Shown piece by piece: positions 3,696-38,140 of a stretch of 64,000 nucleotides of DNA. Origin of the DNA: Panopea generosa (lineage: Eukaryota; Mollusca; Bivalvia; Adapedonta; Hiatellidae); assembly GCA_029582155.1 (NCBI GenBank), contig CM055900.1, positions 39,804,334 to 39,868,333 of the forward strand. The letters run 5' to 3'. The position numbers were made by a program, and so were the translations under genes. The first letter of the stretch is position 1. The number at the start of each line of letters is the position of its first letter. The notes below the pieces were generated by a model. That model was not told the DNA's origin, ran no database searches, and saw only the letters and a program-made list of their open reading frames with translations.

Positions 3696-3819
3696 AAGCA
3701 TTCAAAGAAGAGACCAGCAGAAAATATAGCTGAGCAACCAAAATGTAAAAGAAGGAAGCAGGAGTTTCTGTCTGAAAATGCCAAAAGGCAGATGAACTGG
3801 GCTGTCTCTGTATTTACAG
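3696..3819 (+). CDS. exon with basic nuclear-signal-like segment and start of the recombinase-like core
   Basis: The acceptor AACAG ends at 3695 and the donor GTACTA starts at 3820. The 124 nt begin in phase 0 and leave one base. The first half encodes two clusters of Lys/Arg (KHSKKRP, then KCKRRKQEF), which resembles a bipartite nuclear localisation signal. The second half ends NAKRQMNWAVSVFT, which matches the helix that opens the core domain in ZMYM2-4, QRICH1 and KIAA1958 proteins (general pattern: Thr/Asn, a few residues, WAV.xF..WL). The spare G joins AA at 24163 to give Glu, so the helix reads on as VFTEWLKENG across a 20.3-kb intron. The exact continuation of a family motif across the junction is the best evidence for this model. 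Confidence 0.78.
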
Positions 3820-3934
3820 GTACTACTGGACTTGAAAATAGAGTGTAAACGGTTTGCAAGTACACTAATATGTCATGGTTCAGACATTAAAATAATGAAC
3901 CATGGTAAGGTTTGATTGTGCTGTTTGTTATTAT

Positions 3935-4730
3935 GCTCCCCAAAGGACAAGCACATAGCTGCCACTTTATCAGTCCATCTGTCTATCCAAAATTGTTTCT
4001 AGAACATAACACCAATACTGCTAATGGGAATCCAACAAAATGCAGAGAGAAAGAATCATAACTTTATCTTGTATAATGACATATTTATCTCCCCTTTTGT
4101 ACTTATTTTTGGATCTGAAGCATAAAAATATTATCTTCAAAAATGTTAAAGGGAGTTCAACAATACTTGGAACATGTATAGAGGGATATTGTTTGGAACT
4201 GCAAAGGGAAAGAACCATAATTCTTTCTTGAATAATGACCTTTTGAACTTTATTTTTGGTTATTTTTGTTTGTCTTGAGCATTATTTTTTAAAAGTATAC
4301 AATGGAATGGAAGTCATTGCAACTTGGAACATGGATATAGGGCATTGTATGGAAGCGCAGAGCAAATGAACCATAACTCTATCTTGAATAATGACATAAT
4401 TATTTCCCCTTTTTTCTTTATTTTCGGGTATATTTGCTTCTCTGAAGCATATTCATAAGTATGTAGGAGAATCCAACAAGATTTAGAACAAGGATAGATG
4501 GAAGTTTACCATAACTCTTATTTTAAATAAAAACAAAATTTTCTCAGCTTTTGTATCTTAATTGTATTAATTTTTTGCCTATCCAAAGTTAATTTTTGAC
4601 GGTATGAAAGGAAGATTATCTACTGTATCAAGCACTTTTTGGAGGAGCAATCATCAATACTTCTATTTTTATCCCCAGGTGCATAGTGGAAGGGGATATA
4701 GTAATTGTCTCTGTCCATTCATCTAATATG
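3935..4730 (+). repeat. degenerate tandem repeat, ~155-165-bp period, about four copies
   Basis: The motif CATAACT.T.TCTTG.ATAATGAC recurs near 4045, 4211, 4368 and, more decayed, 4508. Each is preceded by a GGAACATGTATAGAGGG-like stretch and followed by TTTTTGG..TTTG.TTG/CTGAAGCAT. The last part includes a GTGGAAGGGGATATAG word shared with the repeat at 730-760. This is an old dispersed element with internal tandem structure, inside the large intron. Confidence 0.6.
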
Positions 4731-4890
4731 GACATAATACCTGAAATAATAATTATTCAGTGACAATAATCTCAACTGTAAAACAACATGTAATATATAC
4801 AAGGATAGTAAATATTATAGGTGAATAAGGGTAGCAATAGGCATGATAGTAATTAAATGGAGACTTTATTTTTAACCAACATATTAAATG

Positions 4891-5295
4891 TTTAACAACA
4901 ATTATTTAAGTGTCAAAACTTTACTATTTGATTCAAGACCCTAAAAGATTTTGTTTTAATTTTCATTGAATGTGATTTTTATGACACACCAGAAGTTGTG
5001 TTGTGCATCAATTTTCTTATAAATAAAATAGAAATTGCTTCCAATGGAATTTTGAATCTATGTTTCACACAGCCACGTAATAACAAACATCAACATATTA
5101 AATATTTAAGTGTCAAAACTTTACTATTTGATTCAAGACCTTAAAAGATTTTGTTTTAATTTTCATTGAATGTGATTTTTATGACACACCAGAAGTTGTG
5201 TTGTGCATCAATTTTCTTATAAATAAAATAGAAATTGCTTCCAATGGAATTTTGAATCTATGTTTCACACAGCCACGTAATAACAAACATGACAA
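4891..5295 (+). repeat. ~200-bp direct duplication next to the satellite
   Basis: A block beginning near TTTAAGTGTCAAAACTTTAC at 4906 is repeated at 5106 with about one mismatch over ~180 bp, ending in CACGTAATAACAAACAT near 5090 and 5290. The offset is 200 bp. The second copy runs straight into the first satellite monomers at about 5335. Confidence 0.85.
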
Positions 5296-5334
5296 AATCT
5301 GGTCTGCCGGTTTGTTTAGAGAAAACAAAATGAT

Positions 5335-8300
5335 TTATCCAGAAACGGACCCTAGCATCATCAAACATTCAATATTGATGGTTTATCATCATTGTCACAT
5401 AATGAAACAGAACCTAGCATCATCAAACATTCAGTATTGATGGTTTATCATCATTGTAACATAATGAAACAGAACCAAGCATCATCAAACATTCAATATT
5501 GATGGTTTATCCTCATTGTCAAATAATGAAACAGAACCTAGCATCATCAAACATTCAATATTGATTGTTTATCCACATTGTCACATAATGAAACAGAACC
5601 TAGCATCATCAAACATTCAATAGTGATGGTTCATCCACATTGTCACATAATGCATCAAACATTCAATATTGATGGTTTAACCTCATTGTCACATAATGAA
5701 ACAGAACCTAACATCATCAAACATTCAATATTGATGGTTTATCCACATTGTCACATAATGAAACAGAACCTAGCATCATCAAACATTCAATATTGATGGT
5801 TTATCCACATTGTCACATAATGAAACAGAACCTAGCATCATCAAACATTCAATATTGATGGTTTATCCACATTGTCATATGATGGAACAGAAATTAGCAT
5901 CATCAAACATTCAATATTGATGGTTTATCCTCATTGTCACATAATGCATCAAACATTCAATATTGATGGTTTATCCTCATTGTCACATAATGAAACAGAT
6001 CCTAGTATCATCAAACATTCAATATTGACGGTTTATCCTCATTGTCACATAATGACACAGAACTTAGCATCATCAAACATTCAATATTGATGGTTTATCA
6101 TCATTGTCACATAATGAAACAGAACCTAGCATTATCAAACATTCAATATTGATGGTTTATCCTCATTGTCACATAATGACACAGAACTTAGCATCATCAA
6201 ACATTCAATATTGATGGTTTATCCTCATTGTCACATAATGCATCAAACATTCAATATTGATGGTTTAACCTCATTGTCACATAATGAAACAGAACCTAGC
6301 ATCATCAAACATTCAATATTGATGGTTTATCCTCATTGTTACATAATGAAACAGAACCTAGCATCATCAAACATTCAATATAGATGGTTTATCCACATTG
6401 TCACATAATGAAACAGAACCTAGCATCATCAATAATTCAGTATTGGTGCTTTATCATCATTGTCAAATAATGAAACAGAACCTAGCATCATCAAACATTT
6501 AATATTGATTGTTTATCCTTATTGTCACATAATGAAACAGAACCTAGCATCATCAATAATTCAGTATTGGTGCTTTATCCTCATTGTCACATAATGAAAC
6601 AGAACCTAGCATCATCAAATATTCAATATTGATGGTTTATCCTCATTGTCACATAATGACCCAGAACTTAGCGTCATCAAACATTCAATATCGATGGTTT
6701 ATCGTCATTGTCACATAATGCATCAAACATTCATTATTGATGGTTTATCCTCATTGTCACATAATGACACAGAACTTAGCATCATCAAACATTCAATATT
6801 GATGGTTATTCCTCATTGTCACATAATGACACAGAACCTAGCATCATCAAACATTCAATATTGATGGTTTGTCCACATTATCACATAATGAAACAGAACG
6901 TAGCATCATCAAACATTCAATATTGATGGTTTATCCACATTGTCACATAATGAAACAGAACCTAGCATCATCAAACATTCAATATTGATGGTTAATCCAC
7001 ATTGTCATATAATGAAACAGAAATTAGCATCATCAAACATTCAATATTGATGGTTTATCCTGATTGTCACATAATGCATCAAACAATCAATATTGATGGT
7101 TTATCCTCATTGTCACATAATGAAACAGAACTTAGCACCATCAAACATTCAATATTGATGGTTTATCCTCATTGTCACATAATGCATCAAACAATCAATA
7201 TTGATGGTTTATCCTCATTGTCACATAATGAAACAGAACCTAGCATCATCAAACATTCAATATTGATGGTTTAACCTCATTGTCACATAATGAAACAGAA
7301 CCTAGCACCATCAAACATTCAATATTGATGGTTTATCATCGTTGTCACATAATGAAACAGAACTTAGCATCATCAAACATTCAGTATTGATGGTTTAACC
7401 TCATTGTCACATAATGAAACAGAACTTAGCATCATCAAACATTCAATATTGATGGTTTATCATCATTGTCACATAATGAAACAGAACCTAGCATCATCAA
7501 ACATTCAATATTGATGATTTATCCTTATTGTCACATAATGACACAGAACATAGCATCATCAAACATTCAATATTGATGGTTTATCATCATTGTCTCATAA
7601 TGAAACAGAACCTTGCATCATCAAACATTCAATATTGATGGTTTAACCTCATTGTCACATAATGAAACAGAACCTAGCATCATCAAACATTCAATATTGA
7701 TGGTTTATCCTCATTGTCACATAATGACACAGAACTTAGCATCATAAAACATTCAATATTGATGGTTTATCCTCATTGTCACATAATGCATCAAACATTC
7801 ATTATTGATGGTTTATCCTCATTGTCACATAATGACACAGAACTTAGCATCATCAAACATTCAATATTGATGGTTTATCCTCATTGTCACATAATGCATC
7901 AAACAATCAATATTGATGGTTTATTCTCATTGTCACATAATGAAACAGAACCTAGCATCATCAAACATTCAATATTGATGGTTTATCCTCATTGTCACAT
8001 AATGCATCAAACATTCATTATTGATGGTTTATCCTCATTGTCACATAATGACACAGAACTTAGCATCATCAAACATTCAATATTGATGGTTTATCCTCAT
8101 TGTCAAATAATGAAACAGAACCTAGCATCATCAAACATTCAATATTGATGGTTTATCCACATTGTCACATAATGAAACAGAACCTAGCATCATCAATAAT
8201 TCAGTATTGGTGCTTTATCCTCATTGTCACATAATGAAACAGAACCTAGCATCATCAAATATTCAATATTGATGGTTTATCCTCATTGTCACGTAATGAC

Positions 8301-11300
8301 ACAGAACTTAGCATCATCAAACATTCAATATTGATGGTTTATCCTCATTGTCACACAATGCATCAAGCATTCAATATTGATGGTTTATCCTCATTGTCAC
8401 ATAATGACACAGAACCTAGCATCATCAAACATTTAATATTGATGGTTTATCCACATTGTCACATAATGAAACAGAACCTAGCATCATCAAACATTCAATA
8501 TTGATGGTTTATCCACATTGTCACATAATGAAACAGAACCTAGCATCATCAAACATTCAATATTGATGGTTTATCCACATTGTCACATAATGAAACAGCA
8601 CCTAGCATCATCAAACATTCAATATTGATGGTTTATCCACATTGTCACATAATGAAACAGAACCTAGCATCATCAAACATTCAATATTGATGGTTTATCC
8701 TCATTGTCATATAATGCATCAAACAATCAATATTGATGGTTTATCCTCATTGTCACATAATGAAACAGAACCTAGCATCATCAAACATTCAATATTGATG
8801 GTTTATCCTCATTGTCACATAATGACACAGAACTTAGCATCATCAAACATTCAATATTGATGGTTTATCCTCATCATTGTCACTTAACGAAACAGAATCT
8901 AGCATCATCACATATTCAATATCGATGGTTTATAATCATTGTCACATAATGACACAGAACCTAACATCATCAAACTTTCAGTATTGATGATTTATCCTCA
9001 TTGTCACATAATGAAACAGAACATAGCATCATCAAACATTCAATATTGATGGTTTATCATCATTGTCACATAATGAAACAAAACCTAGCATCATCAAACA
9101 TTCAATATTGATGGTTTAACCTCATTGTCACATAATGAAACAGAACCTAGCATCATCAAACATTCAATATTGATGGTTTATCCTCATTGTTACATAATGA
9201 CACAGAACTTAGCATCATAAAACATTCAATATTGATGGTTTATCCTCATTGTCACATAATGCATCAAACATTCATTATTGATGGTTTATCCTCATTGTCA
9301 CATAATGACACAGAACTTAGCATCATCAAACATTCAATATTGATGGTTTATCCTCATTGTCAAATAATGAAACAGAACCTAGCATCATCAAACATTCAAT
9401 ATTGATGGTTTATCCACATTGTCACATAATGAAACAGAACCTAGCATCATCAATAATTCAGTATTGGTGCTTTATCCTCATTGTCACATAATGAAACAGA
9501 ACCTAGCATCATCAAATATTCAATATTGATGGTTTATCCTCATTGTCACGTAATGACACAGAACTTAGCATCATCAAACATTCAATATTGATGGTTTATC
9601 CTCATTGTCACACAATGCATCAAGCATTCAATATTGATGGTTTATCCTCATTGTCACATAATGACACAGAACCTAGCATCATCAAACATTTAATATTGAT
9701 GGTTTATCCACATTGTCACATAATGAAACAGAACCTAGCATCATCAAACATTCAATATTGATGGTTTATCCACATTGTCACATAATGAAACAGAACCTAG
9801 CATCATCAAACATTCAATATTGATGGTTTATCCACATTGTCACATAATGAAACAGCACCTAGCATCATCAAACATTCAATAATGATGGTTTATCCACATT
9901 GTCACATAATGAAACAGAACCTAGCATCATCAAACATTCAATATTGATGGTTTATCCATATTGTCATATAATGAAACAGAAATTAGCATCATCAAACATT
10001 CAATATTGATGGTTTATCCTCATTGTCACATAATGCATCAAACAATCAATATTGATGGTTTATCCTCATTGTCACATAATGAAACAGAACTTAGCATCAT
10101 CAAACATTCAATATTGATGGTTTAACCTCATTGTCACATAATGAAACAGAACCTAGCACCATCAAACATTCAATATTGATGGTTTATCATCGTTGTCACA
10201 TAATGAAACAGAACTTAGCATCATCAAACATTCAATATTGATGGTTTATCATCATTGTCACGTAATGAAACAGAAACTAGCATCATCAAACATTCAATAT
10301 TGATGATTTATCCTCATTGTCACATAATGACACAGAACATAGCATCATCAAACATTCAATATTGATGGTTTATCATCATTGTCACATAATGAAACAGAAC
10401 CTAGCATCATCAAACATTCAATACTAATGGTTTATCCTCATTGTCACATAATGACACAGAACTTAGCATCATCAAACATTCAATATTGATGGTTTATCAT
10501 CATTGTCACGTAATGAAACAGAAACTAGCGTCATCAAACATTCAATATTGATGATTTATCCTCATTGTCACATAATGACACAGAACATAGCATCATCAAA
10601 CATTCAATATTGATGGTTTATCATCATTGTCACATAATGAAACAGAACCTAGCATCATCAAACATTCAATACTAATGGTTTATCCTCATTGTCACATAAT
10701 GAAACAGAACCTAGCATCATCAAACATTAAATATTGATGGTTTATCCACATTGTCACATAATGAAACAGAACCTAGCATCATCAAACATTCAATATTGAT
10801 GGTTTATCCACATTGTCACATAATGAAACAGAACCTAGCATCATCAAACATCCAATATTGATGGTTTATCCACATTGTCACATAATGCATCAAACATTCA
10901 ATATTGATGGTTTATCCTCATTGTCACATAATGCATCAAACATTCAATATTGATGGTTTATCCACATTGTCACATAATGAAACAGAAATTAGCATCATCA
11001 AACATTCAATATTGATGGTTTATCCTCATTGTCACATAATGAAACTGAATCTAGCATCATCAAACATTCAATATTGATCATTTATCCTCATTGTCACATA
11101 ATGAAACAGAACCTAGCATCATCAATAATTCAGTATTGGTGGTTTATCCTCATTGTCACATAATGAAACAGAACCTAGCATCATCAAATAATCAATAATG
11201 ATGGTTTATCATCATTGTCACATAATGAAACAGAACCTAGCATCATCAAACATTCAATATTGATGGGTTTTTTTAACACATTGTCACAGAATGAAACAGA

Positions 11301-14300
11301 AATTAGAATCATCAAACATTCAATATGGATGGTTTGTACTAATTGTCACATAATGAAACAGAACCTAGCATCATCAAACATTCAATATTGATGGTTTATC
11401 TGCATTGTCACATAATGCATCAAACATTCAATATTGATGGTTTATCCTCATTGTCACATAATGCATCAAACATTCAATATTGATGGTTTATCCACATTTT
11501 CACATAATGAAACAGAAATTAGCATCATCAAACATTCAGTATTGATGGTTTATCCTCATTGTCACATAATGAAACAGAACCTAGCATCATCAAACATTCA
11601 ATATTGATCATTTATCCTCATTGTCACATAATGAAACAGAACCTAGCATCATCAATAATTCAGTATTGGTGGTTTATCCTCATTGTCACATAATGAAACA
11701 GAACCTAGCATCATCAAACATTCAATAATGATGGTTTATCCACATTGTCACATAATGAAACAGAACCTAGCATCATCAATAATTCAGTATTGGTGCTTTA
11801 TCATCATTGTCAAATAATGAAACAGAACCTAGCATCATCAAACATTCAATATTGATTGTTTATCCTTATTTTCACATAATGAAACAGAACCTAGCATCAT
11901 CAATAATTCAGTATTGGTGCTTTATCCTCATTGTCACATAATGAAACAGAACCTAGCATCATCAAATATTCAATATTGATGGTTTATCCTCATTGTCACA
12001 TAATGACCCAGAACTTAGCATCATCAAACATTCAATATCGATGGTTTATTGTCATTGTCACATAATGCATCAAACATTCATTATTGATGGTTTATCCTCA
12101 TTGTCACATAATGACACAGAACTTCGCATCATCAAACATTCAATATTGATGGTTTATCCTCATTGTCACATAATGACACAGAACCTAGCATCATCAAACA
12201 TTCAATATTGATGGTTTATCCACATTATCACATAATGAAACAGAACCTAGCATCATCAAACATTCAATATTGATGGTTTATCCACATTGTCACATAATGA
12301 AACAGAACCTAGCATCATCAAACATTCAATATTGATGGTTAATCCACATTGTCATATAATGAAACAGAAATTAGCATCATCAAACATTCAATATTGATGG
12401 TTTATCCTCATTGTCACATAATGCATCAAACAATCAATATTGATGGTTTATCCTCATTGTCACATAATGAAACAGAACTTAGCACCATCAAACATTCAAT
12501 ATTGATGGTTTATCCTCATTGTCACATAATGCATCAAACAATCAATATTGATGGTTTATCCTCATTGTCACATAATGAAACAGAACCTAGCATCGTCAAA
12601 CATTCAATATTGATGGTTTAACCTCATTGTCACATAATGAAACAGAACCTAGCACCATCAAACATTCAATATTGATGGTTTATCATCGTTGTCACATAAT
12701 GAAACAGAACTTAGCATCATCAAACATTCAGTATTGATGGTTTAACCTCATTGTCACATAATGAAACAGAACTTAGCATCATCAAACATTCAATATTGAT
12801 GGTTTATCATCATTGTCACATAATGAAACAGAACCTAGCATCATCAAACATTCAATATTGATGATTTATCCTGATTGTCACATAATGACACAAAACATAG
12901 CATCATCAAACATTCAATATTGATGGTTTATCATCATTGTCACATAATGAAACAGAACCTAGCATCATCAAACATTCAATATTGATGGTTTAACCTCATT
13001 GTCACATAATGAAACAGAACCTAGCATCATCAAACATTCAATATTGATGGTTTATCCTCATTGTCACATAATGACACAGAACTTAGCATCATAAAACATT
13101 CAATATTGATGGTTTATCCTCATTGTCACATAATGCATCAAACATTCATTATTGATGGTTTATCCTCATTGTCACATAATGACACAGAACTTAGCATCAT
13201 CAAACATTCATTATTGATGGTTTATCCTCATTGTCACATAATGCATCAAACAATCAATATTGATGGTTTATCCTCATTGTCACATAATGAAACAGAACCT
13301 AGCATCATCAAACATTCAATATTGATGGTTTATCCTCATTGTCACATAATGACACAGAACTTAGCATCATCAAACATTCAATATTGATGGTTTATCCTCA
13401 TCATTGTCACTTAACGAAACAGAATCTAGCATCATCACAAATTCAATATCGATGGTTTATAATCATTGTCACATAATGACACAGAACCTAACATCATCAA
13501 ACTTTCAGTATTGATGATTTATCCTCATTGTCACATAATGAAACAGAACATAGCATCATCAAACATTCAATATTGATGGTTTATCATCATTGTCACATAA
13601 TGAAACAGAACCTAGCATCATCAAACATTCAATATTGATGGTTTAACCTCATTGTCACATAATGAAACAGAACCTAGCATCATCAAACATTCAATATTGA
13701 TGGTTTATCCTCATTGTTACATAATGACACAGAACTTAGCATCATAAAACATTCAATATTGATGGTTTATCCTCATTGTCACATAATGCATCAATCAATC
13801 AATATTGATGGTTTATCCTCATTGTCACATAATGAAACAGAACTTAGCACCATCAAACATTCAATATTGATGGTTTATCCTCATTGTCACATAATGCATC
13901 AAACAATCAATATTGATGGTTTATCCTCATTGTCACATAATGAAACAGAACCTAGCATCATCAAACATTCAATATTGATGGTTTAACCTCATTGTCACAT
14001 AATGAAACAGAACCTAGCACCATCAAACATTCAATATTGATGGTTTATCATCGTTGTCACATAATGAAACAGAACTTAGCATCATCAAACATCCAGTATT
14101 GATGGTTTAACCTCATTGTCACATAATGAAACAGAACTTAGCATCATCAAACATTCAATATTGATGGTTTATCATCATTGTCACATAATGAAACAGAACC
14201 TAGCATCATCAAACATTCAATATTGATGATTTATCCTTATTGTCACATAATGACACAGAACATAGCATCATCAAACATTCAATATTGATGGTTTATCATC

Positions 14301-17300
14301 ATTGTCACATAATGAAACAGAACCTAGCATCATCAAACATTCAATATTGATGGTTTAACCTCATTGTCACATAATGAAACAGAACCTAGCATCATCAAAC
14401 ATTCAATATTGATGGTTTATCCTCATTGTCACATAATGACACAGAACTTAGCATCATCAAACATTCAATATTGATGGTTTATCCTCATTGTCACATAATG
14501 CATCAAACATTCATTATTGATGTTTTATCCTCATTGTCACATAATGACACAGAACTTAGCATCATCAAACATTCAATATTGATGGTTTATCCTCATTGTC
14601 ACATAATGCATCAAACAATCAATATTGATGGTTTATCCTCATTGTCACATAATGAAACAGAACCTAGCATCATCAAACATTCAATATTGATGGTTTAACC
14701 TCATTGTCACATAATGAAACAGAACATAGCACCATCAAACATTCAATATTGATGGTTTATCATCGTTGTCACATAATGAAACAGAACTTAGCATCATCAA
14801 ACATTCAGTATTGATGGTTTAACCTCATTGTCACATAATGAAACAGAACTTAGCATCATCAAACATTCAATATTGATGGTTTATCATCATTGTCACATAA
14901 TGAAACAGAACTTAGCATCATCAAACATTCAATATTGATGGTTTATCCTCATCATTGTCACTTAATGAAACAGAATCTAGCATCATCACATATTCAATAT
15001 CGATGGTTTATAATCATTGTCACATAATGACACAGAACCTAACATCATCAAACTTTCAGTATTGATGATTTATCCTCATTGTCACATAATGAAACAGAAC
15101 ATAGCATCATCAAACATTCAATATTGATGGTTTATCATCATTGTCACATAATGAAACAGAACCTAGCATCATCAAACATTCAATATTGATGGTTTAACCT
15201 CATTGTCACATAATGAAACAGAACCTAGCATCATCAAACATTCAATATTGATGGTTTATCCTCATTGTTACATAATGACACAGAACTTAGCATCATAAAA
15301 CATTCAATATTGATGGTTTATCCTCATTGTCACATAATGCATCAAACATTCATTATTGATGGTTTATCCTCATTGTCACATAATGACACAGAACTTAGCA
15401 TCATCAAACATTCAATATTGATGGTTTATCCTCATTGTCACATAATGAAACAGAACCTAGCATCATCAAACATTCAATATTGATGGTTTATCCACATTGT
15501 CACATAATGAAACAGAACCTAGCATCATCAATAATTCAGTATTGGTGCTTTATCCTCATTGTCACATAATGAAACAGAACCTAGCATCATCAAATATTCA
15601 ATATTGATGGTTGATTCTCATTGTCACGTTATGACACAGAACTTAGCATCATCAAACATTCAATATCGATGGTTTATCCTCATTGTCACACAATGCATCA
15701 AGCATTCAATATTGATGGTTTATCCTCATTGTCACATAATGACACAGAACCTAGCATCATCAAACATTTAATATTGATGGTTTATCCACATTGTCACATA
15801 ATGAAACAGAACCTAGCATCATCAAACATTCAATATTGATGGTTTATCCACATTGTCACATAATGAAACAGAACCTAGCATCATCAAACATTCAATATTG
15901 ATGGTTTATCCACATTGTCACATAATGAAACAGCACCTAGCATCATCAAACATTCAATATTGATGGTTTATCCACATTGTCACATAATGAAACAGAACCT
16001 AGCATCATCAAACATTCAATATTGATGGTTTATCCATATTGTCATATAATGAAACAGAAATTAGCATCATCAAACATTCAATATTGATGGTTTATCCTCA
16101 TTGTCACATAATGCATCTAACAATCAATATTGATGGTTTATCCTCATTGTCACATAATGAAACAGAACTTAGCATCATCAAACATTCAATATTGATGGTT
16201 TAACCTCATTGTCACATAATGAAACAGAACCTAGCACCATCAAACATTCAATATTGATGGTTTATCATCGTTGTCACATAATGAAACAGAACTTAGCATC
16301 ATCAAACATTCAATATTGATGGTTTAACTTTATTGTCACATAATGACACAGAACTTAGCATCATCAAACATTCAATATTGATGGTTTATCATCATTGTCA
16401 CATAATGAAACAGAAACTAGCATCATCAAACATTCAATATTGATGATTTATCCTCATTGTCACATAATGACACAGAACATAGCATCATCAAACATTCAAT
16501 ATTGATGGTTTATCATCATTGTCACATAATGAAACAGAACCTAACATCATCAAACATTCAATACTAATGGTTTATCCTCATTGTCACATAATGACACAGA
16601 ACTTAGCATCATAAAACATTCAATATTGATGGTTTATCCTCATTGTCACATAATGCATCAAACATTCATTATTGATGGTTTATCCTCATTGTCACATAAT
16701 GACACAGTACTTAGCATCATCAAACATTCAATATTGATTGTTTATCCTCATTGTCACATAATGAAACAGAACCTAGCATCATCAAACATTAAATATTGAT
16801 GGTTTATCCACATTGTCACATAATGAAACAGAACCTAGCATCATCAAACATTCAATATTGATGGTTTATCCACATTGTCACATAATGAAACAGCACCTAG
16901 CATCATCAAACATCCAATATTGATGGTTTATCCACATTGTCACATAATGCATCAAACATTCAATATTGATGGTTTATCCTCATTGTCACATAATGCATCA
17001 AACATTCAATATTGATGGTTTATCCACATTGTCACATAATGAAACAGAAATTAGCATCATCAAACATTCAATATTGATGGTTTATCCTCATTGTCACATA
17101 ATGAAACTGAACCTAGCATCATCAAACATTCAATATTGATCATTTATCCTCATTGTCACATAATGAAACAGAACCTAGCATCATCAATAATTCAGTATTG
17201 GTGGTTTATCTTCATTGTCACATAATGAAACAGAACCTAGCATCATCAAATAATCAATAATGATGGTTTATCATCATTGTCACATAATGAAACAGAACCT

Positions 17301-20300
17301 AGCATCATCAAACATTCAATATTGATAGGTTTTTTTACACATTGTCACAGAATGAAACAGAAATTAGAATCATCAAACATTCAATATGGATGGTTTGTAC
17401 TAATTGTCACATAATGAAACAGAACCTAGCATCATCAAACATTCAATATTGATGGTTTATCTACATTGTCACATAATGCATCAAACATTCAATATTGATG
17501 GTTTATCCTCATTGTCACATAATGCATCAAACATTCAATATTGATGGTTTATCCACATTTTCACATAATGAAACAGAAATTAGCATCATCAAACATTCAG
17601 TATTGATGGTTTATCCTCATTGTCACATAATGAAACAGAACCTAGCATCATCAAACATTCAATATTGATCATTTATCCTCATTGTCACATAATGAAACAG
17701 AACCTAGCATCATCAATAATTCAGTATTGGTGGTTTTTCCTCATTGTCACATAATGAAACAGAACCTAGCATCATCAAACATTCAATAATGATGGTTTAT
17801 CCACATTGTCACATAATGAAACAGAACCTAGCATCATCAATAATTCAGTATTGGTGCTTAATCATCATTGTCAAATAATGTAACAGAACCTAGCATCATC
17901 AAACATTCAATATTGATTGTTTATCCTTATTGTCACATAATGAAACAGAACCTAGCATCATCAATAATTCAGTATTGGTGCTTTATCCTCATTGTCACAT
18001 AATGAAACAGAACCTAGCATCATCAAATATTAAATATTGATGGTTTATCCTCATTGTCACATAATGACCCAGAACTTAGCATCATCAAACATTCAATATC
18101 GATGGTTTATCGTCATTGTCACATAATGCATCAAACATTCATTATTGATGGTTTATCCTCATTGTCACATAATGACACAGAACTTAGCATCATCAAACAC
18201 TCAATATTGATGGTTTATCCTCATTGTCACATAATGACACAGAACCTAGCATCATCAAACATTCAATATTGATGGTTTATCCACATTATCACATAATGAA
18301 ACAGAACCTAGCATCATCAAACATTCAATATTGATGGTTTATCCACATTGTCACATAATGAAACAGAACCTAGCATCATCAAACATTCAATATTGATGGT
18401 TAATCCACATTGTCATATAATGAAACAGAAATTAGCATCATCAAACATTCAATATTGATGGTTTATCCTCATTGTCACATAATGCATCAAACAATCAATA
18501 TTGATGGTTTATCCTCATTGTCACATAATGAAACAGAACTTAGCACCATCAAACATTCAATATTGATGGTTTATCCTCATTGTCACATAATGAAACAGAA
18601 CCTAGCACCATCAAACATTCAATATTGATGGTTTATTCTCATTGTCACATAATGCATCAAACATTCAATATTGATGGTTAATCCACATTGTCATATAATG
18701 AAACAGAAATTAGCATCATCAAACATTCAATATTGATGGTTTATCCTCATTGTCACATAATGCATCAAACAATCAATATTGATGGTTTATCCATATTGTC
18801 ATATAATGAAACAGAAATTAGCACCATCAAACATTCAATATTGATGGTTTATCCTCATTGTCACATAATGCATCAAACAAGCAATATTGATGGTTTATCC
18901 TCATTGTCACATAATGAAACAGAACCTAGCATCATCAAACATTCAATATTGATGGTTTAACCTCATTGTCACATAATGAAACAGAACCTAGCACCATCAA
19001 ACATTCAATATTGATGGTTTATCATCGTTGTCACATAATGAAACAGAACTTAGCATCATCAAACATTCAGTATTGATGGTTTAACCTCATTGTCACATAA
19101 TGAAACAGAACTTAGCATCATCAAACATTCAATATTGATGGTTTATCATCATTGTCACATAATGAAACAGAACCTAGCATCATCAAACATTCAATATTGA
19201 TGATTTATCCTTATTGTCACATAATGACACAGAACATAGCATCATCAAACATTCAATATTGATGGTTTATCATCATTGTCACATAATGAAACAGAACCTA
19301 GCATCATCAAACATTCAATATTGATGGTTTAACCTCATTGTCACATAATGAAACAGAACCTAGCATCATCAAACATTCAATATTGATGGTTTATCCTCAT
19401 TGTCACATAATGACACAGAACTTAGCATCATAAAACATTCAATATTGATGGTTTATCCTCATTGTCACATAATGCATCAAACATTCATTATTGATGGTTT
19501 ATCCTCATTGTCACATAATGACACATAACTTAGCATCATCAAACATTCAATATTGATGGTTTATCCTCATTGTCACATAATGCATCAAACAATCAATATT
19601 GATGGTTTATCCTCATTGTCACATAATGAAACAGAACCTAGCATCATCAAACATTCAATATTGATGGTTTATCCTCATTGTCACATAATGACACAGAACT
19701 TAGCATCATCAAACATTCAATATTGATGGTTTATCCTCATCATTGTCACTTAACGAAACAGAACTTAGCATCATCACATATTCAATATCGATGGTTTATA
19801 ATCATTGTCACATAATGACACAGAACCTAACATCATCAAACTTTCAGTATTGATGATTTATCCTCATTGTCACATAATGAAACAGAACATAGCATCATCA
19901 AACATTCAATATTGATGGTTTATCATCATTGTCACATAATGAAACAGAACCTAGCATCATCAAACATTCAATATTGATGGTTTAACCTCATTGTCACATA
20001 ATGAAACAGAACCTAGCATCATCAAACATTCAATATTGATGGTTTATCCTCATTGTTACATAATGACACAGAACTTAGCATCATAAAACATTCAATATTG
20101 ATGGTTTATCCTCATTGTTACATAATGACACAGAACTTAGCATCATAAAACATTCAATATTGATGGTTTATCCTCATTGTCACATAATGCATCAAACATT
20201 CATTATTGATGGTTTATCCTCATTGTCACATAATGACACAGAACTTAGCATCATCAAACATTCAATATTGATGGTTTATCCTCATTGTCACATAATGAAA

Positions 20301-23300
20301 CAGAACCTAGCATCATCAAACATTCAATATTGATGGTTTATCCACATTGTCACATAATGAAACAGAACCTAGCATCATCAATAATTCAGTATTGGTTCTT
20401 TATCCTCATTGTCACATAATGAAACAGAACCTAGCATCATCAAATATTCAATATTGATGGTTTATCCTCATTGTCACGTAATGACACAGAACTTAGCATC
20501 ATCAAACATTCAATATCGATGGTTTATCCTCATTGTCACACAATGCATCAAGCATTCAATATTGATGGTTTATCCTTATTGTCACATAATGACACAGAAC
20601 CTAGCATCATCAAACATTTAATATTGATGGTTTATCCACATTGTCACATAATGAAACAGAACCTAGCATCATCAAACATTCAATATTGATGGTTTATCCA
20701 CATTGTCACATAATGAAACAGAACCTAGCATCATCAAACATTCAATATTGATGGTTTATCCACATTGTCACATAATGAAACAGCACCTAGCATCATCAAA
20801 CATTCAATATTGATGGTTTATCCACATTGTCACATAATGAAACAGAACCTAGCATCATCAAACATTCAATATTGATGGTTTATCCATATTGTCATATAAT
20901 GAAACAGAAATTAGCATCATCAAACATTCAATATTGATGGTTTATCCTCATTGTCACATAATGCATCAAACAATCAATATTGATGGTTTATCCTCATTGT
21001 CACATAATGAAACAGAACTTAGCATCCTCAAACATTCAATATTGATGGTTTAACCTCATTGTCACATAATGAAACAGAACCTAGCACCATCAAACATTCA
21101 ATATTGATGGTTTATCATCGTTGTCACATAATGAAACAGAACTTAGCATCATCAAACATTCAATATTGATGGTTTAACTTTATTGTCACATAATGACACA
21201 GAACTTAGCATCATCAAACATTCAATATTGATGGTTTATCATCATTGTCACATAATGAAACAGAAACTAGCATCATCAAACATTCAATATTGATGATTTA
21301 TCCTCATTGTCACATAATGACACAGAATATAGCATCATCAAACATTCAGTATTGATGGTTTATCATCATTGTCACATAATGAAACAGAACCTAGCATCAT
21401 CAAACATTCAATATTGATGGTTTATCCTCATTGTCACATAATGACACAGAACTTAGCATCATAAAACATTCAATATTGATGGTTTATCCTCATTGTCACA
21501 TAATGCATCAAACATTCATTATTGATGGTTTATCCTCATTGTCACATAATGACACAGAACTTAGCATCATCAAACATTCAATATTGATGGTTTATCCTCA
21601 TTGTCACATAATGAAACAGAACCTAGCATCATCAAACATTCAATATTGATGGTTTATCCACATTGTCACATAATGAAACAGAACCTAGCATCATCAAACA
21701 TTCAATATTGATGGTTTATCCACATTGTCACATAATGAAACAGAACCTAGCATCATCAAACATCCAATATTGATGGTTTATCCACATTGTCACATAATGC
21801 ATCAAACATTCAATATTGATGGTTTATCCTCATTGTCACATAATGTATCAAACATTCAATATTGATGGTTTATCCACATTGTCACATAATGAAACAGAAA
21901 TTAGCATCATCAAACATTCAATATTGATGGTTTATCCTCATTGTCACATAATGAAACTGAACCTAGCATCATCAAACATTCAATATTGATCATTTATCCT
22001 CATTGTCACATAATGAAACAGAACCTAGCATCATCAATAATTCAGTATTGGTGGTTTATCCTCATTGTCACATAATGAAACAGAACCTAGCATCATCAAA
22101 TAATCAATAATGATGGTTTATCATCATTGTCACATAATGAAACAGAACCTAGCATCATCAAACATTCAATATTGATGGGGTTTTTTACACATTGTCACAG
22201 AATGAAACAGAAATTAGAATCATCAAACATTCAATATGGATGGTTTGTACTAATTGTCACATAATGAAACAGAGCCTAGCATCATCAAACATTCAATATT
22301 GATGGTTTATCTACATTGTCACATAATGCATCAAACATTCAATATTGATGGTTTATCCTCATTGTAACATAATGCATCAAACATTCAATATTGATGGTTT
22401 ATCCACATTGTCACATAATGAAACAGAAATTAGCATCATCAAACATTCAGTATTGATGGTTTATCCTCATTGTCACATAATGAAACAGAACCTAGCATCA
22501 TCAAACATTCAATATTGATCATTTATCCTCATTGTCACATAATGAAACAGAACCTAGCATCATCAATTATTCAGTATTGGTGGTTTATCCTCATTGTCAC
22601 ATAATGAAACAGAACCTAGCATCATCAAACATTCAATAATGATGGTTTTTCCACATTGTCACATAATGAAACATAAATTAGAATCATCAAACATTCAATA
22701 TGGATGGTTTGTACTAATTGTCACATAATGAAACAGAACCTAGCATCATCAAACATTCAATATTGATGGTTTATCCACATTTTCACATAATGAAACAGAA
22801 CCTAGCATCATCAAACATTCAAAATTGATGGTTTATCCTCCGTGTCACATAATTAAACAGAACCTAGCATCATCGAACATTCAAAATTGATGGTTTATCC
22901 TCATTGTCACATAATGAAACAGAACCTAGCATCGTCAAATATTCAATATTGATGGTTTATCCTCATTGTCACATAATGAAACAGAAACTAGCATCGTCTT
23001 ATATTCAATATTGATGATTTATCATCATTGTCACATAATGAAACAGAACCTAGCATCATCAAATATTCAATATTGATAGTTTATCATCATTGTCACATAA
23101 TGAAACAGAACCTAGCATCATCAAACATTCAAAATTGATGGTTTATCCTCCGTGTCACATAATTAAACAGAACCTAGCATCATCGAACATTCAAAATTGA
23201 TGGTTTATCCTCATTGTCACATAATGAAACAGAACCTAGCATCGTCAAATATTCAATATTGATGGTTTATCCTCATTGTCACATAATGAAACAGAACCTA

Positions 23301-23786
23301 GCATCGTCTAATATTCAACATTGATGATTTATCATCATTGTCACATAATGAAACAGAACCTAGCATCATCAAATATTCAATATTGATAGTTTATCATCAT
23401 TGTCACATAATGAAACAGAACCTAGAATCATCATATATTCAATATTGATGGTTTATCTTCATTGTCACATAATGAAACAGAACCTAGCATCATCAAATAT
23501 TCAATATTGATGGTTTATCATCATTGTCACATAATGAAACAGAACCTAGCATCATCAAATATTCAATATTGATAGTTTATCTTCATTATTCACATTATGA
23601 AACAGAACTTAGCATCATGAAATATTCAATATTGATGGTTTATCATCATTGTCACATAACGAAACTGAATCTAGCATCATCAAATATTCAATATTGACGA
23701 TTTATAATCATTGTCACATAATGACACAGAACCTAGCATCATCATATATTCATTATTGATGGTTTATCATCATTGTCAAATAATGT
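5335..23786 (+). repeat. 18.4-kb intronic satellite, 62-bp and 46-bp monomers in higher-order blocks
   Basis: The monomer is 62 bp and contains ATTCAATATTGATGGTTTAT, then a TCATTGTCACATAATG word, AAACAGAACCTAG and CATCATCAAAC. A second 46-bp form lacks the 16 bases between CATAATG and CATCAAAC. At an average near 60 bp there are about 300 monomers. Distinctive variants recur at fixed offsets: 6646/11993 and 7002/12349 (5347 bp), 11993/18054 (6061 bp), 15265/20115 and 16581/21431 (4850 bp), and a nested 8286/9543 pair (1257 bp). A T-rich variant near 11265, 17327 and 22178 marks each block. Older, more divergent monomers lie at both ends. There is no unique sequence between monomers. Confidence 0.97.
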
Positions 23787-24162
23787 ACTTCCAAAATTTT
23801 GTAACAAATACAGTTGCCCAGTCAACTAATAAGTTATTTCTGCCAGATGAAGGAAAATATATTGAAGTATTAAGAGTATGTATTGCCTAACTTCAAACCT
23901 GGTGCTGGCAATTTTGATTGACTGTTATTTTTTTTGAAAGAATGTTCATTTTCACTCCTGAATTAACGTAAGCCCTGAAATGTCATCAAAATAGTCATTT
24001 AAAACTACTGTCTTTGAAGTGGCCAGATAACTGTGTTCTTTAAAGAAAAATGCGTTTACAAGGATATAGGTATAGCACCAAAGTCTCTTTGAATTTTCAA
24101 GACATTTTTTCTCAGCTATATGATGTTAAATATATTAATTAGTTTTTATTCACATTTTACAG
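23787..24162. other. intron end between satellite and terminal exon
   Basis: Unique AT-rich sequence. It ends with a T-rich tract and the acceptor ACATTTTACAG at 24152-24162, directly before the terminal exon of the Crypton-derived gene. Confidence 0.6.
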
Positions 24163-24983
24163 AATGGCTAAAGGAGAATGGAGAAAATGATTTTCAGTTT
24201 GAATACAAAGATGCAGCTTGGATGAATAAGAAATTGGCAAAATTTTATATTCAGGCTAAAACGCTGGATGGCTCCCCATACTCGTGTGAAAGTTTACAAA
24301 CATTCCGCAGAACTTTATCCCTATATCTGATTGGCTATCCTGGAAGTCAAAGTGTTAATATCAGTATCAACCTAGATCCTGCATTCCATTCTTCAAACCT
24401 GGTTCTTTCTGCCGTCACCCAGCTGCGCCGTGACAGCTCGACTCATACAAGTAAACTGGTAATGCCCATCTGTGAAGAGGATTTAGAGAAATTGTATAGC
24501 AGTAATACCCTTTCAGACCAAAACCCTGTCTCACTGTCCTGGAAAGTATGGTTTGATGTGACATATCATCTGTGTAAAGGAAAACTACCGCGGGGATTCT
24601 GGGGTTTACTGTCTTGGCACAGTTTAGCCTTACAGAGTAATGCAAATGGTGTGTATTACAGTTTTGTTGACAGTAGTTGTGTACCAGATGGGGAAGAACC
24701 TGGCAAGATGTATGCAACTCCATGTGAACCAGACAGATGCCCAGTGCGTACAACATCCCTGTATCTCTCGAAACTCAACCAAAACTGTGATGCTCTGTTT
24801 CAGTATCCTAGGAAATCTTGGTTAACGACAAAGGACAGATGGTTCTTGCCAATACCAATTGGACGTGAGAAGATGAACACCATGATGGTAATGATATCTA
24901 CCCATGCAAGATTGTCAAGGATGTACAACAATGCCAGTGTTATGATGACGGCAAAGTTCAAGGAATTGGTGCGAAAGAAATAG
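24163..24983 (+). CDS. terminal exon: inactive Crypton-type tyrosine recombinase domain (DUF3504-like)
   Basis: This exon holds most of the core domain, 273 codons ending in TAG at 24981-24983. The family arose from tyrosine recombinases of Crypton DNA transposons and acts in animals as nuclear and chromatin proteins (established for ZMYM2-4 and QRICH1). Visible family features, in order, are the rest of the first helix (EWLKENG), the ELN-like helix plus DGSPYSCESL, a LRRD segment, the LCKGKLPRGFWGLLSW region where the first catalytic Arg is expected, a RCPVRTTSLYLSKLN segment, then RWFLPIPIG and LSRMYNNASVMMT. In active relatives the last motif reads NHS.R.T and is followed by a Gly-His segment and the Tyr nucleophile. 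Here His is Ala (24933-24935), Arg is Met (24942-24944), and the protein stops about a dozen residues later. It is therefore probably catalytically dead. A further 3' exon replacing this stop cannot be excluded. The exon should start at 24163; the open frame that extends upstream to 24120 runs into the intron. Confidence 0.8.
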
Positions 24984-26760: not shown

Positions 26761-28086
26761 CCTATACCATGAAAACAAAAAAAAAATACTCCAGAACTAT
26801 CATTTGTGTAAATGTTGTATTGACATTTTGTGATAATGATACACCATAAAGTATCTTTCTTGAATTGTCTACACATTTGTTTGATAAATTATATATGTAT
26901 ACATTGTATTCTAGAATATTATGTAGCAATAAACTAAGGTAACTTTTTAACACAAACTTGTTTGGGGCATTGTTTTTTTTTCTACGGCTCGTAATTTTAT
27001 ACAACTTTTTCAACCGTTTTATTTTTTCATTTATCAATATAATTATACCACCATGGTGTAGATAAATATTCTTTATTTGTCAGCATGAAGCTACATGTAT
27101 AGAAGATCTTACACTGTAGTAAACTATTGTCATTTCTGTCTTTCTGCAACAATTTTTAAGAAGATAGTTTTTTTTAAAAAAAATAAGCTTGTTTTCACCA
27201 TTTATATACTATTTTAGCAATGATTACATTGTCAAAACATTTATTTACTTATATAGTTCGAAATGATAATTTAGAGATTAGAAACACATAAAAAACTCAT
27301 TATAACTGTAATAGACCTGCAGCGTAATTACTTTGTAATCCAAACTAATTGCAAAAATTCATAATTCATTTAAGGAGCAGTCATTGATACAATAATCTAT
27401 TTGATCTAGACATTGTTTTACAATATAAAGAATAAGTAAATGGTAGTTCAATTCTTTATAGATGTTCTTGTGATTTTGGCTATGTAATATCTGTATTATA
27501 TTTAAAATTTCAAGATTTCCACACTTTTACAGTTCATCTTTGTTATTGTTTATTGTTGTTTTAAAGACAATTAGTTGTATGTTTTGACATATTTTTTACT
27601 TATAGCATGTCCCAATACTTTCTTTTACAAGTGTAGTTAATTAAACTGGCAATTTAAGTTTTTACAAATTGATACCTGATTGTTGAATACAGCTGTGAAT
27701 TACAACTTTTAAAGTGAACATACAAAATTAAAGATTTCCTTAAAGAACTATGGTAAGCATTTTCAAGTCCTAGATTTGTAAAATATTGAAAGTGATTTGT
27801 TGAAAATGTGTACTTGAGTTTTTATTTGTAAGTCAAATTTAAAAAAAGAAAAAGAAGTAAAAACTTTTATTTTCGGTTATTTCTCTGTTGTTCAATTTTC
27901 ATGCATATTTCTACTGCTTAAATTTCATAGAAAATTATCTTGTGAGATATTTAAATGTTTAAAATTTCGAAAATAATTTTATGCATTTATGTAAAGAATC
28001 GGGTTTGAAAAGTGTAGAAAATCAGATTTGAAAAGAATATTTTTATGCCACAAAGAATGGAGAAGGATCATAAGTGCAGCATTGTT
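26760..28086. other. AT-rich intergenic DNA
   Basis: No exon, repeat family or RNA gene was recognised. Open frames such as the 91-codon one on the minus strand at 26762-27037 are AT-rich and lack support. Confidence 0.5.
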
Positions 28087-28278
28087 ATGGCCCCTTTTTG
28101 ACTTAATTACATGAAGTGGGTGCATCCATGTCTTATGGCCCCTTTTTGACTTAATTACATATAGTGGTTGCATCCATGTCTTATGGCCCCTTTTTGACTT
28201 AATTATATATAGTGGGTGCATCCATGTCTTATGGCCCCTTTTTGACTTAATTACATATAGTGGAGGCATCTTTGTCCT
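28087..28278 (+). repeat. 48-bp minisatellite, four copies
   Basis: ATGGCCCCTTTTTGACTTAA starts copies at 28087, 28135, 28183 and 28231, an exact 48-bp step. Each is followed by TTA.AT..AGTGG.TGCATCCATGTCTT. The last copy is more divergent. Because 48 is a multiple of three, it generates a repetitive minus-strand open frame (27979-28269) with a 16-residue repeat; I regard that frame as non-coding. Confidence 0.95.
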
Positions 28279-28814
28279 ATGGATACATGACTTGTTTAAG
28301 TTTTTATTTCTTTAATTCAATCACCAAGATAATGTGATATGTGAGTTTTTCATTCTCATGGTTTCACAGTTATGTACGATTTTAACCAATCATTGAACTG
28401 CAAAATTATTTAGTCTTTCAGCAAAATTAATTTTCTTTCAAGTTAAAAAGCATGTTTTTTCCAGTTATTTTGTGAAGTTAGGAAAAATTAAGGCTACTTC
28501 TTATTGGAAATAGTGGAATATGCAGGTCCTCAACCCCACCCTTTCCGATCGAAAAAGAGAATGATACAGGCTTGTTTTAATGAAACCATGTTTGTGAAAG
28601 TTATTGTGTAATACAAGAATAGTACTGTAACTTCTTACTGTTATGTTGAGTTTTATGATCTCAATATTGTTATTAGATGTATGTAAATAATTATTTCTCA
28701 GTTTTTGTCTAGAACTTGCTGAAACAAGAATTACTTTATTTTGTTACAATTAAAAAAGAATAAAAAAAAGATTGCTATTTTTTTTTTTATACTTATTCTT
28801 TTTACTTTGATTGG

Positions 28815-34619: not shown

Positions 34620-35520
34620 TTATTGACAGTAATCACAGCATTTATTTGCCCCTTCCTCTCCTTCTTGATGATGATGTTGGTGGTTTGTGGGCGGGGTCTC
34701 AATCTCATCATCATCAATGCTCGAGTCGGACTCTGAGGAACTTGAGAACTCAATTGGTGGACAATACTTCCTGTTGCAGATGGCTGGGCAGTCTACTGGA
34801 CATTTTCCAGTCAATTCCAGACGACCTCTCATGTAGAACTCATCCTTCACATGAGAGGTATATGAAATGTATTCTCTCAAATTGTCAGCAAGGTTTAATT
34901 TTTTTAATTTATGGGGTGGGTATTTCCCCATCAATCGAAAGATACGACCTCTGCATAACTGGCGCAGTGTCCTGACTTTATCCGTTTCTCTTTCAAGCCA
35001 ATTGATTATATCTGGGCGATGATAAATTGAGACGGGCCAGTCGTTTCGTTTCACCCAATCCTCTTGCAAGAAATGCGGGTTTACCGCTGCCATGAATTTC
35101 ATAAGACGCACCAACTTTTCATCAACTGCCATATGGAAGTAGGTTGGTCCACGTTTTTTTACAAGTGAACACCCTTGATGTATTAGCGTCATTGCACATT
35201 CTTCACTGTGTAAATTCATAGCCTGAGACAGCGGTGTCTCCTTCCATTTGTAACGTTTGTCCATCTTGTACCCATACTCAATCAGCAGTTTGGCCATGGC
35301 AGGGTTATGATGCTCTATGGCAACTGTCATGGCAGTTATGCCGTTATTGCTCTTTGCATGAATCTTAATCTCATTTTGCAATAAGTACTCTACAATCTCA
35401 TATCTTTTGTATGCGACACCAAAGTGTACAGCATTGAATCCTTCCTCTGTACGAGCCTGTATCTTACATAGAGCATTCACAAGTAATTCTACAATATCTT
35501 TATTGTCCATCTGTACAGCT
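34620..35520 (-). CDS. terminal exon of ankyrin-repeat/SOCS-box (ASB-like) protein
   Basis: This 901-nt exon runs from the acceptor TTATTTCAG (ending at 35521 on the minus strand) to TAA at 34622-34620 and encodes residues 253-552. Five ankyrin-type helices come first (TPLIKAVQMDNKDIVELL, then GFNAVHFGVAYKRYEIVEYLL, GITAMTVAIEHHNPAMAKLL, ETPLSQAMNLHSEECAMTLI, and a decayed last one). A SOCS box at about 436-472 follows, with BC-box residues Leu438, Cys442 and Ile446 in LRQLCRGRI, and ends in LREYISY. In known ASB proteins this box binds Elongin B/C and Cullin-5, making the ankyrin part a substrate receptor for ubiquitination. The Cullin-5 box, typically LP.P, reads LNLA here. After the SOCS box comes an unusual ~80-residue tail with a Cys cluster (CPVDCPAICNRKYCPP), a Ser/acidic run, His/Gln residues and a final CCDYC. 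Confidence 0.85.
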
Positions 35521-35619
35521 CTGAAATAACAAAGAAACATTGTTTATATAATGTTTGTAATCATTTCTCAATAACAAGAAAACAAAAGAGTCACTTCATT
35601 ATTTTGCCATCAACTTTAA

Positions 35620-35850
35620 GGAAGTTTAACGCCATATTCAACACATTTCAGGTTACGTATTGCATATCCAGTTATTATTGCTGGAGAAAGACATCAGAAT
35701 GGATCTGAGTAGAACCACCATCCTCCTGCAAGTAACTGGAAAATTTTCTCACATAAAGTTTTTGGAGTGAGTGGCATTTGAACCTATGACCTTGTGGTTA
35801 GAGGTAAGTGATCTTGAGAAGACTCCTTGGATCATTTGGCCATGGAGGAC
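35620..35850 (-). mobile_element. SINE-like family D copy in intron of the ASB-like gene
   Basis: On the plus strand it reads TTCAACACATTTCAGGTTA, then CATATCCAGTTATTATTGCTGG, GAGTAGAACCACCATCC.CC and ACATAAAGTTTTTGGAG. It ends with ATTTGAACCTATGACC, which on the minus strand is a B-box-like GGTCATAGGTTCAAATGCC. Near-identical parts recur at 42250-42455. It is probably a tRNA-derived SINE with its head toward 35850. Confidence 0.7.
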
Positions 35851-36096
35851 TCTCATTTTTCCATCATTTAAATTTTTTAGAGATATGTTTTAATTTCTAA
35901 TCAGAGAATGATGATGATTGTTCCTAGTGCATACACTGTCTATCTTGGTATCTCGTCAGTTTTGCGACTAAATGCAATAATACATAATGTATGTATGTAA
36001 CCTACTGCATTATAATTGTCATCATTGCAAGCCACACAGGGCAACACTAGTCTTTATTAAAGAAACTGGAAGTAATTTTTTTTATTTAAATGTATT

Positions 36097-37142
36097 TGTT
36101 CTACATCGATTGTTAAACAAGTTCTTACAACTTCGACAAATCATGTTTTCTTGGGTAGAACCAGTACTAAACATGTGGATAAAGTGTCTTAGTCAGGGAC
36201 ACTACACATGACCGAGGTCGAGGATTGAACACAAAATCCTGGGCAGAAGCAGTACTAAACATGTGGATAAAGTGTCTTACTCAGGGACACTACACATGAC
36301 AGAGGTTGAGGATTGAACACATAATTTTGGGTATAACCAGTACTAAACATGTGGATAAAGTGTCTTAGTCAGGGACACTACACATGACCGAGGTCGAGGA
36401 TTGAACACATAATTTTGGGTATAACCGGTACTAAACATGTGGATAAAGTGTCTTAGTCAGGGACACTACACATGACCGAGGTCAAGGATTGAACACATAA
36501 TTTTGGGTATAACCAGTACTAAACATGTGGATAAAGTGTCTTAGTCAGGGACACTACATATGACCGAGGTCGAGGATTGAACACAAAATCCTGGGCAGAA
36601 GCATTACTAAACATGTAGATAAAGTGTCTTACTCAGGGACACTACACATGACAGAGGTCGAGGATTGAACACATAATTTTGGGTATAACCAGTACTAAAC
36701 ATGTGGATAAAGTGTCTTAGTCAGGGACACTACACATGACCGAGGTCGAGGATTGAACACATAATTTTAGGTATAACCAGTACTAAACATGTGGATAAAG
36801 TGTCTTAGTCAGGGACACTACACATGACCGAGTCGAGGATTGAACACATAATTTTGGGTATAACCAGTACTAAACATGTGGATAAAGTGTCTTAGTCAGG
36901 GACACTACACATGACCGAGGTTGAGGATTGAACACAAAATCCTGAGCAGAAGCAGTACTAAACATGTAGATAAAGTGTCTTAGTCAGGGACACTACACAT
37001 GACCAAGGTCGAGGATTGAACACATAATTTTGGGTATAACCAGTACTAAACATGTGGATAAAGTGTCTTACTCAGGAACACTACACATGACCGAGGTCAA
37101 GGATTGAACACGTAATCCTGGGTCTGATGCAATACCAACACA
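36097..37142 (-). repeat. SINE family C copy with an internal 87-bp segment expanded to about eleven copies
   Basis: The outer parts match one SINE: the tail side at 36097-36155 (GATTGTTAAACAAGTTC then TTGGGTAGAACC) and the head side at 37100-37142 (AATCCTGGGTCTGATGC). Between them the segment AGTACTAAACATGTGGATAA, AGTGTCTTAGTCAGGGACAC, TACACATGACCGAGGTCGAG, GATTGAACACATAATTTTGG, GTATAACC is repeated about eleven times at 86-90-bp steps. Two subtypes alternate irregularly (ATAATTTTGGGTATAACC and AAAATCCTGGGCAGAAGC). It lies in the last intron of the ASB-like gene. Confidence 0.9.
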
Positions 37143-37915: not shown

Positions 37916-38140
37916 TTGATTAATGGAGTTTCAGCCTTCATATCAAAACCCATTCTTCGCATATTCACATCTGCCTTGGCTTCTATCAACAGTTGAACGC
38001 ATCTGGCATTATTGCTCAATATGGCACGGTACAGTGGACTAGTTCCTGTCTCCCTATCGGTGAAGTTTACGTCGCATTCTGTACCGCGAGTGTTCATTAG
38101 CAAGTCAGCTATTTCTGGGTTCCCATTCAGAGCTGCTATC
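37916..38140 (-). CDS. ankyrin-repeat exon of the ASB-like gene
   Basis: A 225-nt exon bounded on the minus strand by the acceptor TTTTTCCAG (before 38140) and the donor GTATGT (after 37916). It begins with one base that completes Trp178 and ends with two bases that join the next exon to make Lys253. The peptide completes one ankyrin repeat (PIW then IAALNGNPEIADLLM), encodes another (GTSPLYRAILSNNARCVQLL, then IEAKADVN) and starts the next (AETPLI, continued by KAVQMDNKDIVELL at 35520). That ankyrin helices read continuously across both junctions strongly supports the model. Confidence 0.85.

Follow-up and report, generated by a model that had tools for sequence, protein, structure and literature searches.

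Long blocks of repeated DNA inside introns are already known from other animals. Introns of the Drosophila Y-linked genes kl-3 and kl-5 contain megabases of satellite DNA, which has been reported to be transcribed, probably together with the exons as a single RNA (PMC6508621). Here we describe a satellite array in a predicted intron of the bivalve Panopea generosa, within a 64,000-nucleotide stretch of GenBank assembly GCA_029582155.1 (contig CM055900.1, positions 39,804,334 to 39,868,333 of the forward strand) that is referred to below as the window and numbered from its first base. A tandem array of 18,444 bp, organized as three near-identical super-units, lies in an intron of a predicted gene whose last exon matches the domain family DUF3504. 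The likeness to kl-3 and kl-5 is the presence of satellite DNA inside introns, whereas the fly repeats, on a mostly repetitive Y chromosome, are described as short and simple and as extending over megabases, in genes with a spermatocyte programme (PMC6508621), and the Panopea array is 18.4 kb of a 62-bp unit.

Repeats of kilobase scale have also been described in introns. TRACT, a 30-bp variable-number tandem repeat in an intron of human CACNA1C, spans 3 to more than 30 kb, and its long alleles are reported to accompany reduced expression of CACNA1C in fibroblasts but not in the tested brain regions (PMC13131567, a preprint). TRACT and the Panopea array are both kilobase-scale arrays of a short, diverged unit within an intron; TRACT has a 30-bp unit and lies in a working gene, whereas here the unit is 62 bp and the intron is predicted. 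For an intronic repeat of ABCA7, a review states that longer alleles favour a cryptic splice site (PMC8239992). In Tribolium, introns are reported to be enriched in satellite-related repeats (P = 0.005 with all families combined), a likeness that the TCAST repeats of Tribolium euchromatin share, although these are described as scattered through the genome singly or in short arrays (PMC5844308). Cg_HINE Helentrons of the Pacific oyster likewise place satellite-like repeats in non-coding parts of genes, but the gene-linked examples reported have about 1.5 to 9 monomers (PMC7492417). The original prediction for this locus held that satellites this long usually lie in heterochromatin rather than in transcribed genes. 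The array is not thereby exceptional, since intronic satellites and kilobase repeats are in print in the sources cited here (PMC6508621, PMC13131567, PMC5844308).

Five predicted coding segments on the plus strand join into a single open frame of 410 residues, separated by introns of 331, 1517, 1557, and 20,343 bp, all four of them GT-AG. The first segment (positions 1 to 24) is the 3' part of an exon cut by the window edge; it encodes AANEVPV plus one base, fits the frame of the next segment, and ends at a GT donor. Three coding exons with AG and GT borders and open frames follow, at 356 to 529 (GTAAGT donor, frame fixed by both junctions), 2047 to 2138 (weak donor, AAG/GTTCCT), and 3696 to 3819. 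This last is the fourth segment in the window, named exon 3 in the original prediction and here, and it ends with NWAVSVFT plus one base of a glutamate codon. The predicted intron that follows, 3820 to 24162, opens with the donor CAG/GTACTA, is 90.7% array, and ends at a pyrimidine-rich 3' splice site of matching phase. The predicted terminal coding exon, 24163 to 24983, is identified by its Pfam match and its frame and encodes 273 residues including the split glutamate. At this phase-1 junction, VFT plus G meets AA to complete GAA (Glu), followed by WLKENG, and the peptide across it is NWAVSVFTEWLKENG. Both the 20.3-kb intron, 90% of it satellite, and the continuous frame from VFT plus one base to Glu-WLKENG stand as originally predicted. 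Random stretches of the window are open in a set frame in 2.2% of cases at 174 bp, 14% at 92 bp, and 6.9% at 124 bp, frequencies that support the model and do not test it, because the exon borders were picked to keep the frame. The end of exon 3 (3810 to 3819) and the 3' splice site (24153 to 24162) both end in TTTACAG, and the reading frame ahead of the terminal exon has HFT in place of the VFT of exon 3, a resemblance probably due to chance plus the splice-site consensus.

The encoded protein is probably transposon derived, judging from its terminal exon. Residues 181 to 245 of that exon match DUF3504 at 29.7 bits, against a gathering cut-off of 29.7, over profile positions 92 to 160 of 162. 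The score is 29.5 with part of exon 3 joined and 25.5, below the cut-off, for all five segments. DUF3504 has been derived from the recombinase of Crypton elements, and the genes reported to carry it include WOC, ZMYM2/3/4, QRICH1, KCTD1, and KIAA1958, with two conserved intron positions reported for WOC, ZMYM2/3/4, and QRICH1 (Kojima and Jurka 2011, PMC3212892). Like the predicted terminal exon, these genes have a C-terminal DUF3504 match. A Crypton-derived domain, as originally claimed, is hinted at by this one match, which stands at the cut-off and covers the C-terminal part only. NCBIfam gave no match, and searches for relatives of the terminal exon gave 4 pattern matches in viral contigs and 12 in prokaryotic genome contigs, none confirmed, a result uninformative on animals. 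In the Protein Data Bank (PDB), the protein of exon 3 plus the terminal exon had 13 matches, the best of them chemotaxis proteins (expectation value [E] of 0.025 and up), and QRICH1 chain 9hjt_H matched it at E 1.2 in the C-terminal part only. Across three PDB searches, the best E values were 0.025, 0.081, and 0.029, all weak matches. We see in NWAVxVFxxWL a resemblance to animal DUF3504 proteins in their N-terminal part; MYNNASVMMTA, on the C-terminal side, has the look of a degenerate catalytic motif.

Tandem Repeats Finder describes positions 5342 to 23785 as a single array of period 62 with 306 copies, and an anchor scan counted 310 monomers. Among the 309 spacings between them, 251 are 62 bp, 50 are 46 bp, and 8 are 63 to 66 bp; the 46-bp unit is a deletion variant, the 62-bp unit without 16 bp. 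The 62-bp consensus was built from 251 monomers (110 distinct) with a mean divergence of 4.5%. Monomers follow one another head to tail over kilobases, the order of a satellite or long minisatellite. Array size and higher-order structure are confirmed as observations, and an 18.4-kb satellite within one intron, the central claim of the original prediction, is what the 18,444 bp inside predicted intron 3820 to 24162 amount to. The monomer does not recur in the rest of the window (best match 16 bp, E 0.25), and a 17-base monomer core, sought on one strand, was not found in the literature searched. The longest stop-to-stop frame listed in the array, 156 residues, lies where 62- and 46-bp units alternate. 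A coding role was rejected, as stop codons are commoner than expected (1,209 versus 963).

Three near-identical super-units could in principle be mis-joined, so that the array or its length would be an assembly artifact. The 64-kb window contains zero N bases, exact repeats within the array reach 662 bp at most, differences in the longest near-identical block amount to 1.4% of 2,766 positions, and 132 of the 309 monomer sequences are distinct. Accurate reads of 10 to 20 kb would be expected to resolve such repeats, and we consider an artifact very improbable.

The original claim of higher-order structure is borne out by comparing super-units with neighboring monomers. A diagonal scan placed the longest near-identical blocks 4,850 to 6,339 bp apart, and super-unit borders were set by cutting the array along lags of 5347, 6061, and 4850. 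The resulting super-units, each supported by the scan and by alignment, occupy positions 6310 to 11656 (5,347 bp, 90 monomers), 11657 to 17717 (6,061 bp, 102 monomers), and 17718 to 22567 (4,850 bp, 82 monomers). In global alignments, units 1 and 2 are 97.8% identical (5,330 aligned bases, 7 gaps), units 2 and 3 are 98.9% identical (4,788 aligned bases, 4 gaps), and units 1 and 3 are 97.3% identical (4,788 aligned bases, 8 gaps), whereas adjacent monomers of equal length average 92.6% (n = 204). Super-units that resemble one another more than neighboring monomers do are the pattern of block duplication. Pairs of super-units have 31 to 35 exact monomer types in common. There are three copies only, of unequal length and differing by block insertions and deletions, and several gaps between units are whole monomers, namely 418 bp (6 × 62 + 46), 758 bp (10 × 62 + 3 × 46), 186 bp (3 × 62), and gaps of 62, 46, and 108 bp. 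All 21 monomer lags tested gave 91.4 to 93.3% identity; as the super-units lose register with one another, no fixed monomer number is favored, and no super-unit of fixed length is apparent. For TRACT, growth through tracts of perfect repeats has been proposed (PMC13131567), whereas only 2 pairs of neighboring monomers in this array are identical and its growth looks like block duplication.

We think it likely that the array is a neutral, locally amplified intronic satellite, or very long minisatellite, with a three-copy higher-order structure, which would be spliced out with its intron. Under this explanation, a 62-bp unit within an otherwise ordinary DUF3504 gene intron would have grown into an array through slippage and unequal exchange, a 16-bp deletion would have made the 46-bp unit, and tandem duplication of blocks of 82 to 102 monomers would have followed, accompanied by more gains and losses of blocks; that is, we infer amplification by exchange and block duplication from the pattern of identities. 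RNA polymerase II would read through the array, a fair inference from the gene structure, and splicing would join 3819 to 24163, so that the array would leave with the intron and the protein would therefore be unaffected. The repeat sequence would need no function, and the likeliest effect would be a longer transcription time and perhaps lower output.

A mobile element, for instance a Helentron, could have brought in the array as its internal repeat, with expansion afterwards. This is an account of origin that is compatible with a neutral, locally amplified satellite, and the oyster elements, which are reported to carry satellite-like arrays into non-coding parts of genes (PMC7492417), offer a precedent. 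The flanks of the array speak against it: within the intron they share one 34-bp direct match (79%, E 5e-4) and otherwise only short matches with E values of at least 0.87; exact matching between the array edges does not exceed 6 bp, with no convincing target duplication; the flanks and the monomer are not repeated in other parts of the window; and no element ends turned up in these flank comparisons. We regard such an arrival as rather unlikely.

Several observations weigh against a locally homogenized array spliced from a single gene. Gaps of 329, 326, 16, and 1 bp between super-units are not whole monomers, and the 16-bp gap is a switch between 62- and 46-bp monomers. A homogenized middle finds support at one end only. 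Divergence from the consensus is 6.3% at the 3' edge against 4.4 to 4.6% in the interior, and the best partner of the last block (23342) is 82%, the weakest of 31 sampled 300-bp blocks, but the 5' edge is 3.3% from the consensus, not above the interior, and the first two sampled blocks have partners at 94 to 95%, while interior blocks 7742 and 18542 have partners at 94% only. On the protein side, the 111 residues around the exon junction match no Pfam family even with E values up to 10 allowed, and in the PDB only four chains match this stretch, none better than E 0.081. With no match spanning the junction, homology does not prove that both exons belong together; the DUF3504 match itself does not reach the junction, and the Pfam model may omit that part of the protein. 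These junction results also bear on the original claim that the intron splits a single helix of a recombinase-like core, which they do not show: a single-sequence fold model reached a mean predicted local distance difference test score (pLDDT) of 36.6, too poor to reveal a split helix or to serve in a fold search, and its short N-terminal helix (residues 2 to 8) is for the same reason no evidence. Introns often interrupt helices, and a helix of the encoded protein interrupted by this one is plausible.

The intron sequence before the array also leaves room for transcripts that never cross it. Upstream transcripts would then end at polyadenylation signals ahead of the array and encode a protein truncated soon after VFT, and transcription of the terminal exon would begin separately, at a start site between the array and 24163. 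AATAAA occurs at 4526, 5022, and 5222, where transcripts could end early, along with four ATTAAA; the frame continued from exon 3 ends in VFTGTTGLENRV and a stop codon at 3846 to 3848; and the terminal exon is preceded by two in-frame ATGs (24120 and 24123), from which the frame is open. Early signals, an early stop, and in-frame ATGs therefore allow truncated or separate transcripts. Against this, three AATAAA in 1.5 kb are close to the two expected at the density of 23.9 per 18.4 kb that holds for the remainder of the window, and a pyrimidine-rich 3' splice site of matching phase is present at 24163. We judge an uncrossed array unlikely and favor removal of the whole array by splicing.

Function was considered at the level of the repeat RNA. 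Transcription of the array might delay the gene, as has been proposed for giant Y-linked genes of flies, or about 300 repeat copies might yield an RNA that collects proteins or supplies small-RNA production; we find either function quite improbable. In favor of a function, the array is strand-asymmetric (guanine-cytosine skew of about −0.25 to −0.28 in its interior), so that sense RNA would be uniform and C/A-rich, and a dimer of the sense consensus folds somewhat better than shuffles (z score of −2.1, 9 of 200 as good), whereas the antisense dimer does no better than shuffles (z of 0.4). Eight real 310-nucleotide pieces of the array do not repeat this difference, with z scores of 0 to −1.4 for sense and 0 to −2.2 for antisense and sense lower in 4 of the 8; the scores are mixed, and folding therefore shows no consistent strand difference. 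Covariation was absent among the 110 distinct monomers, and Rfam gave no match in the window at its gathering threshold. Selection on RNA structure was rejected as a candidate, with hairpin pairing at 94.4% versus 94.6% after column shuffling and 484 of 500 shuffles at or above the observed value.

Sequence motifs offered a second line of evidence for a functional RNA. The sense strand of the array contains no AATAAA (expected, 16.5), no GTRAGT (expected, 3.0), and no match to a strong-acceptor pattern, a composition that would help read-through. The antisense strand also lacks GTRAGT (0 versus 8.2 expected) and has 5 AATAAA where 14.1 were expected. These missing motifs follow from the repetition of one 62-bp unit, in which most hexamers are absent anyway; the null is wrong for such a sequence, and the sense depletion of polyadenylation signals and donors was set aside. 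Only one single change to the consensus yields a sense AATAAA, and it is carried by 0 of 251 monomers, while G-to-A changes at the other six consensus G positions occur in 2 to 21 monomer copies each. As a single informative site this is too little to infer selection against AATAAA in the sense strand, where ATTAAA is present 5 times. No selection on the repeat RNA was found in these sequence comparisons. A more specific proposal, in which the transcribed three-unit satellite would set the output of a DUF3504 regulator gene through transcription delay or early polyadenylation, with array length as a dial on whether the C-terminal domain is present, is in our estimation highly unlikely.

The array does not change what is thought possible. 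As a gap-free higher-order satellite in a predicted intron, it can be used to ask how far arrays within genes grow before they harm splicing, and, were it expressed, it would serve as a small and tractable analogue of the satellite introns, megabases long, that fly Y genes contain.

Tandem repeats are common in the window as a whole. Nine larger arrays, with smaller ones left out, make up 28,782 bp, or 45% of the window, and 23% of the remainder when the array at 5342 to 23785, the longest of them, is set aside. A second array in a predicted intron is found in what reads as an ankyrin gene on the minus strand (34620 to 39710), so that the arrangement would occur twice in the window. Open frames at 34620 to 35543, 37888 to 38166, and 39183 to 39710 have ankyrin matches in Pfam, which exceed the cut-offs in the first two frames and fall slightly short in the third; the frame at 34620 to 35543, the last of the predicted gene, also encodes a SOCS box. 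An 88-bp array (36151 to 37123) lies within the predicted intron of about 2.4 kb between 34620 to 35543 and 37888 to 38166, whose borders were read by eye.

Smaller or separate repeats were also observed. Directly before the satellite, on the plus strand, Tandem Repeats Finder reports a tandem duplication at 4903 to 5290 (period 200, 1.9 copies, 99% matches). A 48-bp tandem repeat of four copies at 28085 to 28282 lies within a 110-residue open frame on the minus strand. The 32-bp array at 43842 to 47032 contains a nested 496-bp period at 44092 to 45682 (96% matches). At the end of the window, a 75-bp tandem array with 93% matches extends for 4.2 kb from 59786 to 64000 and continues past the window edge, and frames of up to 276 residues stay open through it.

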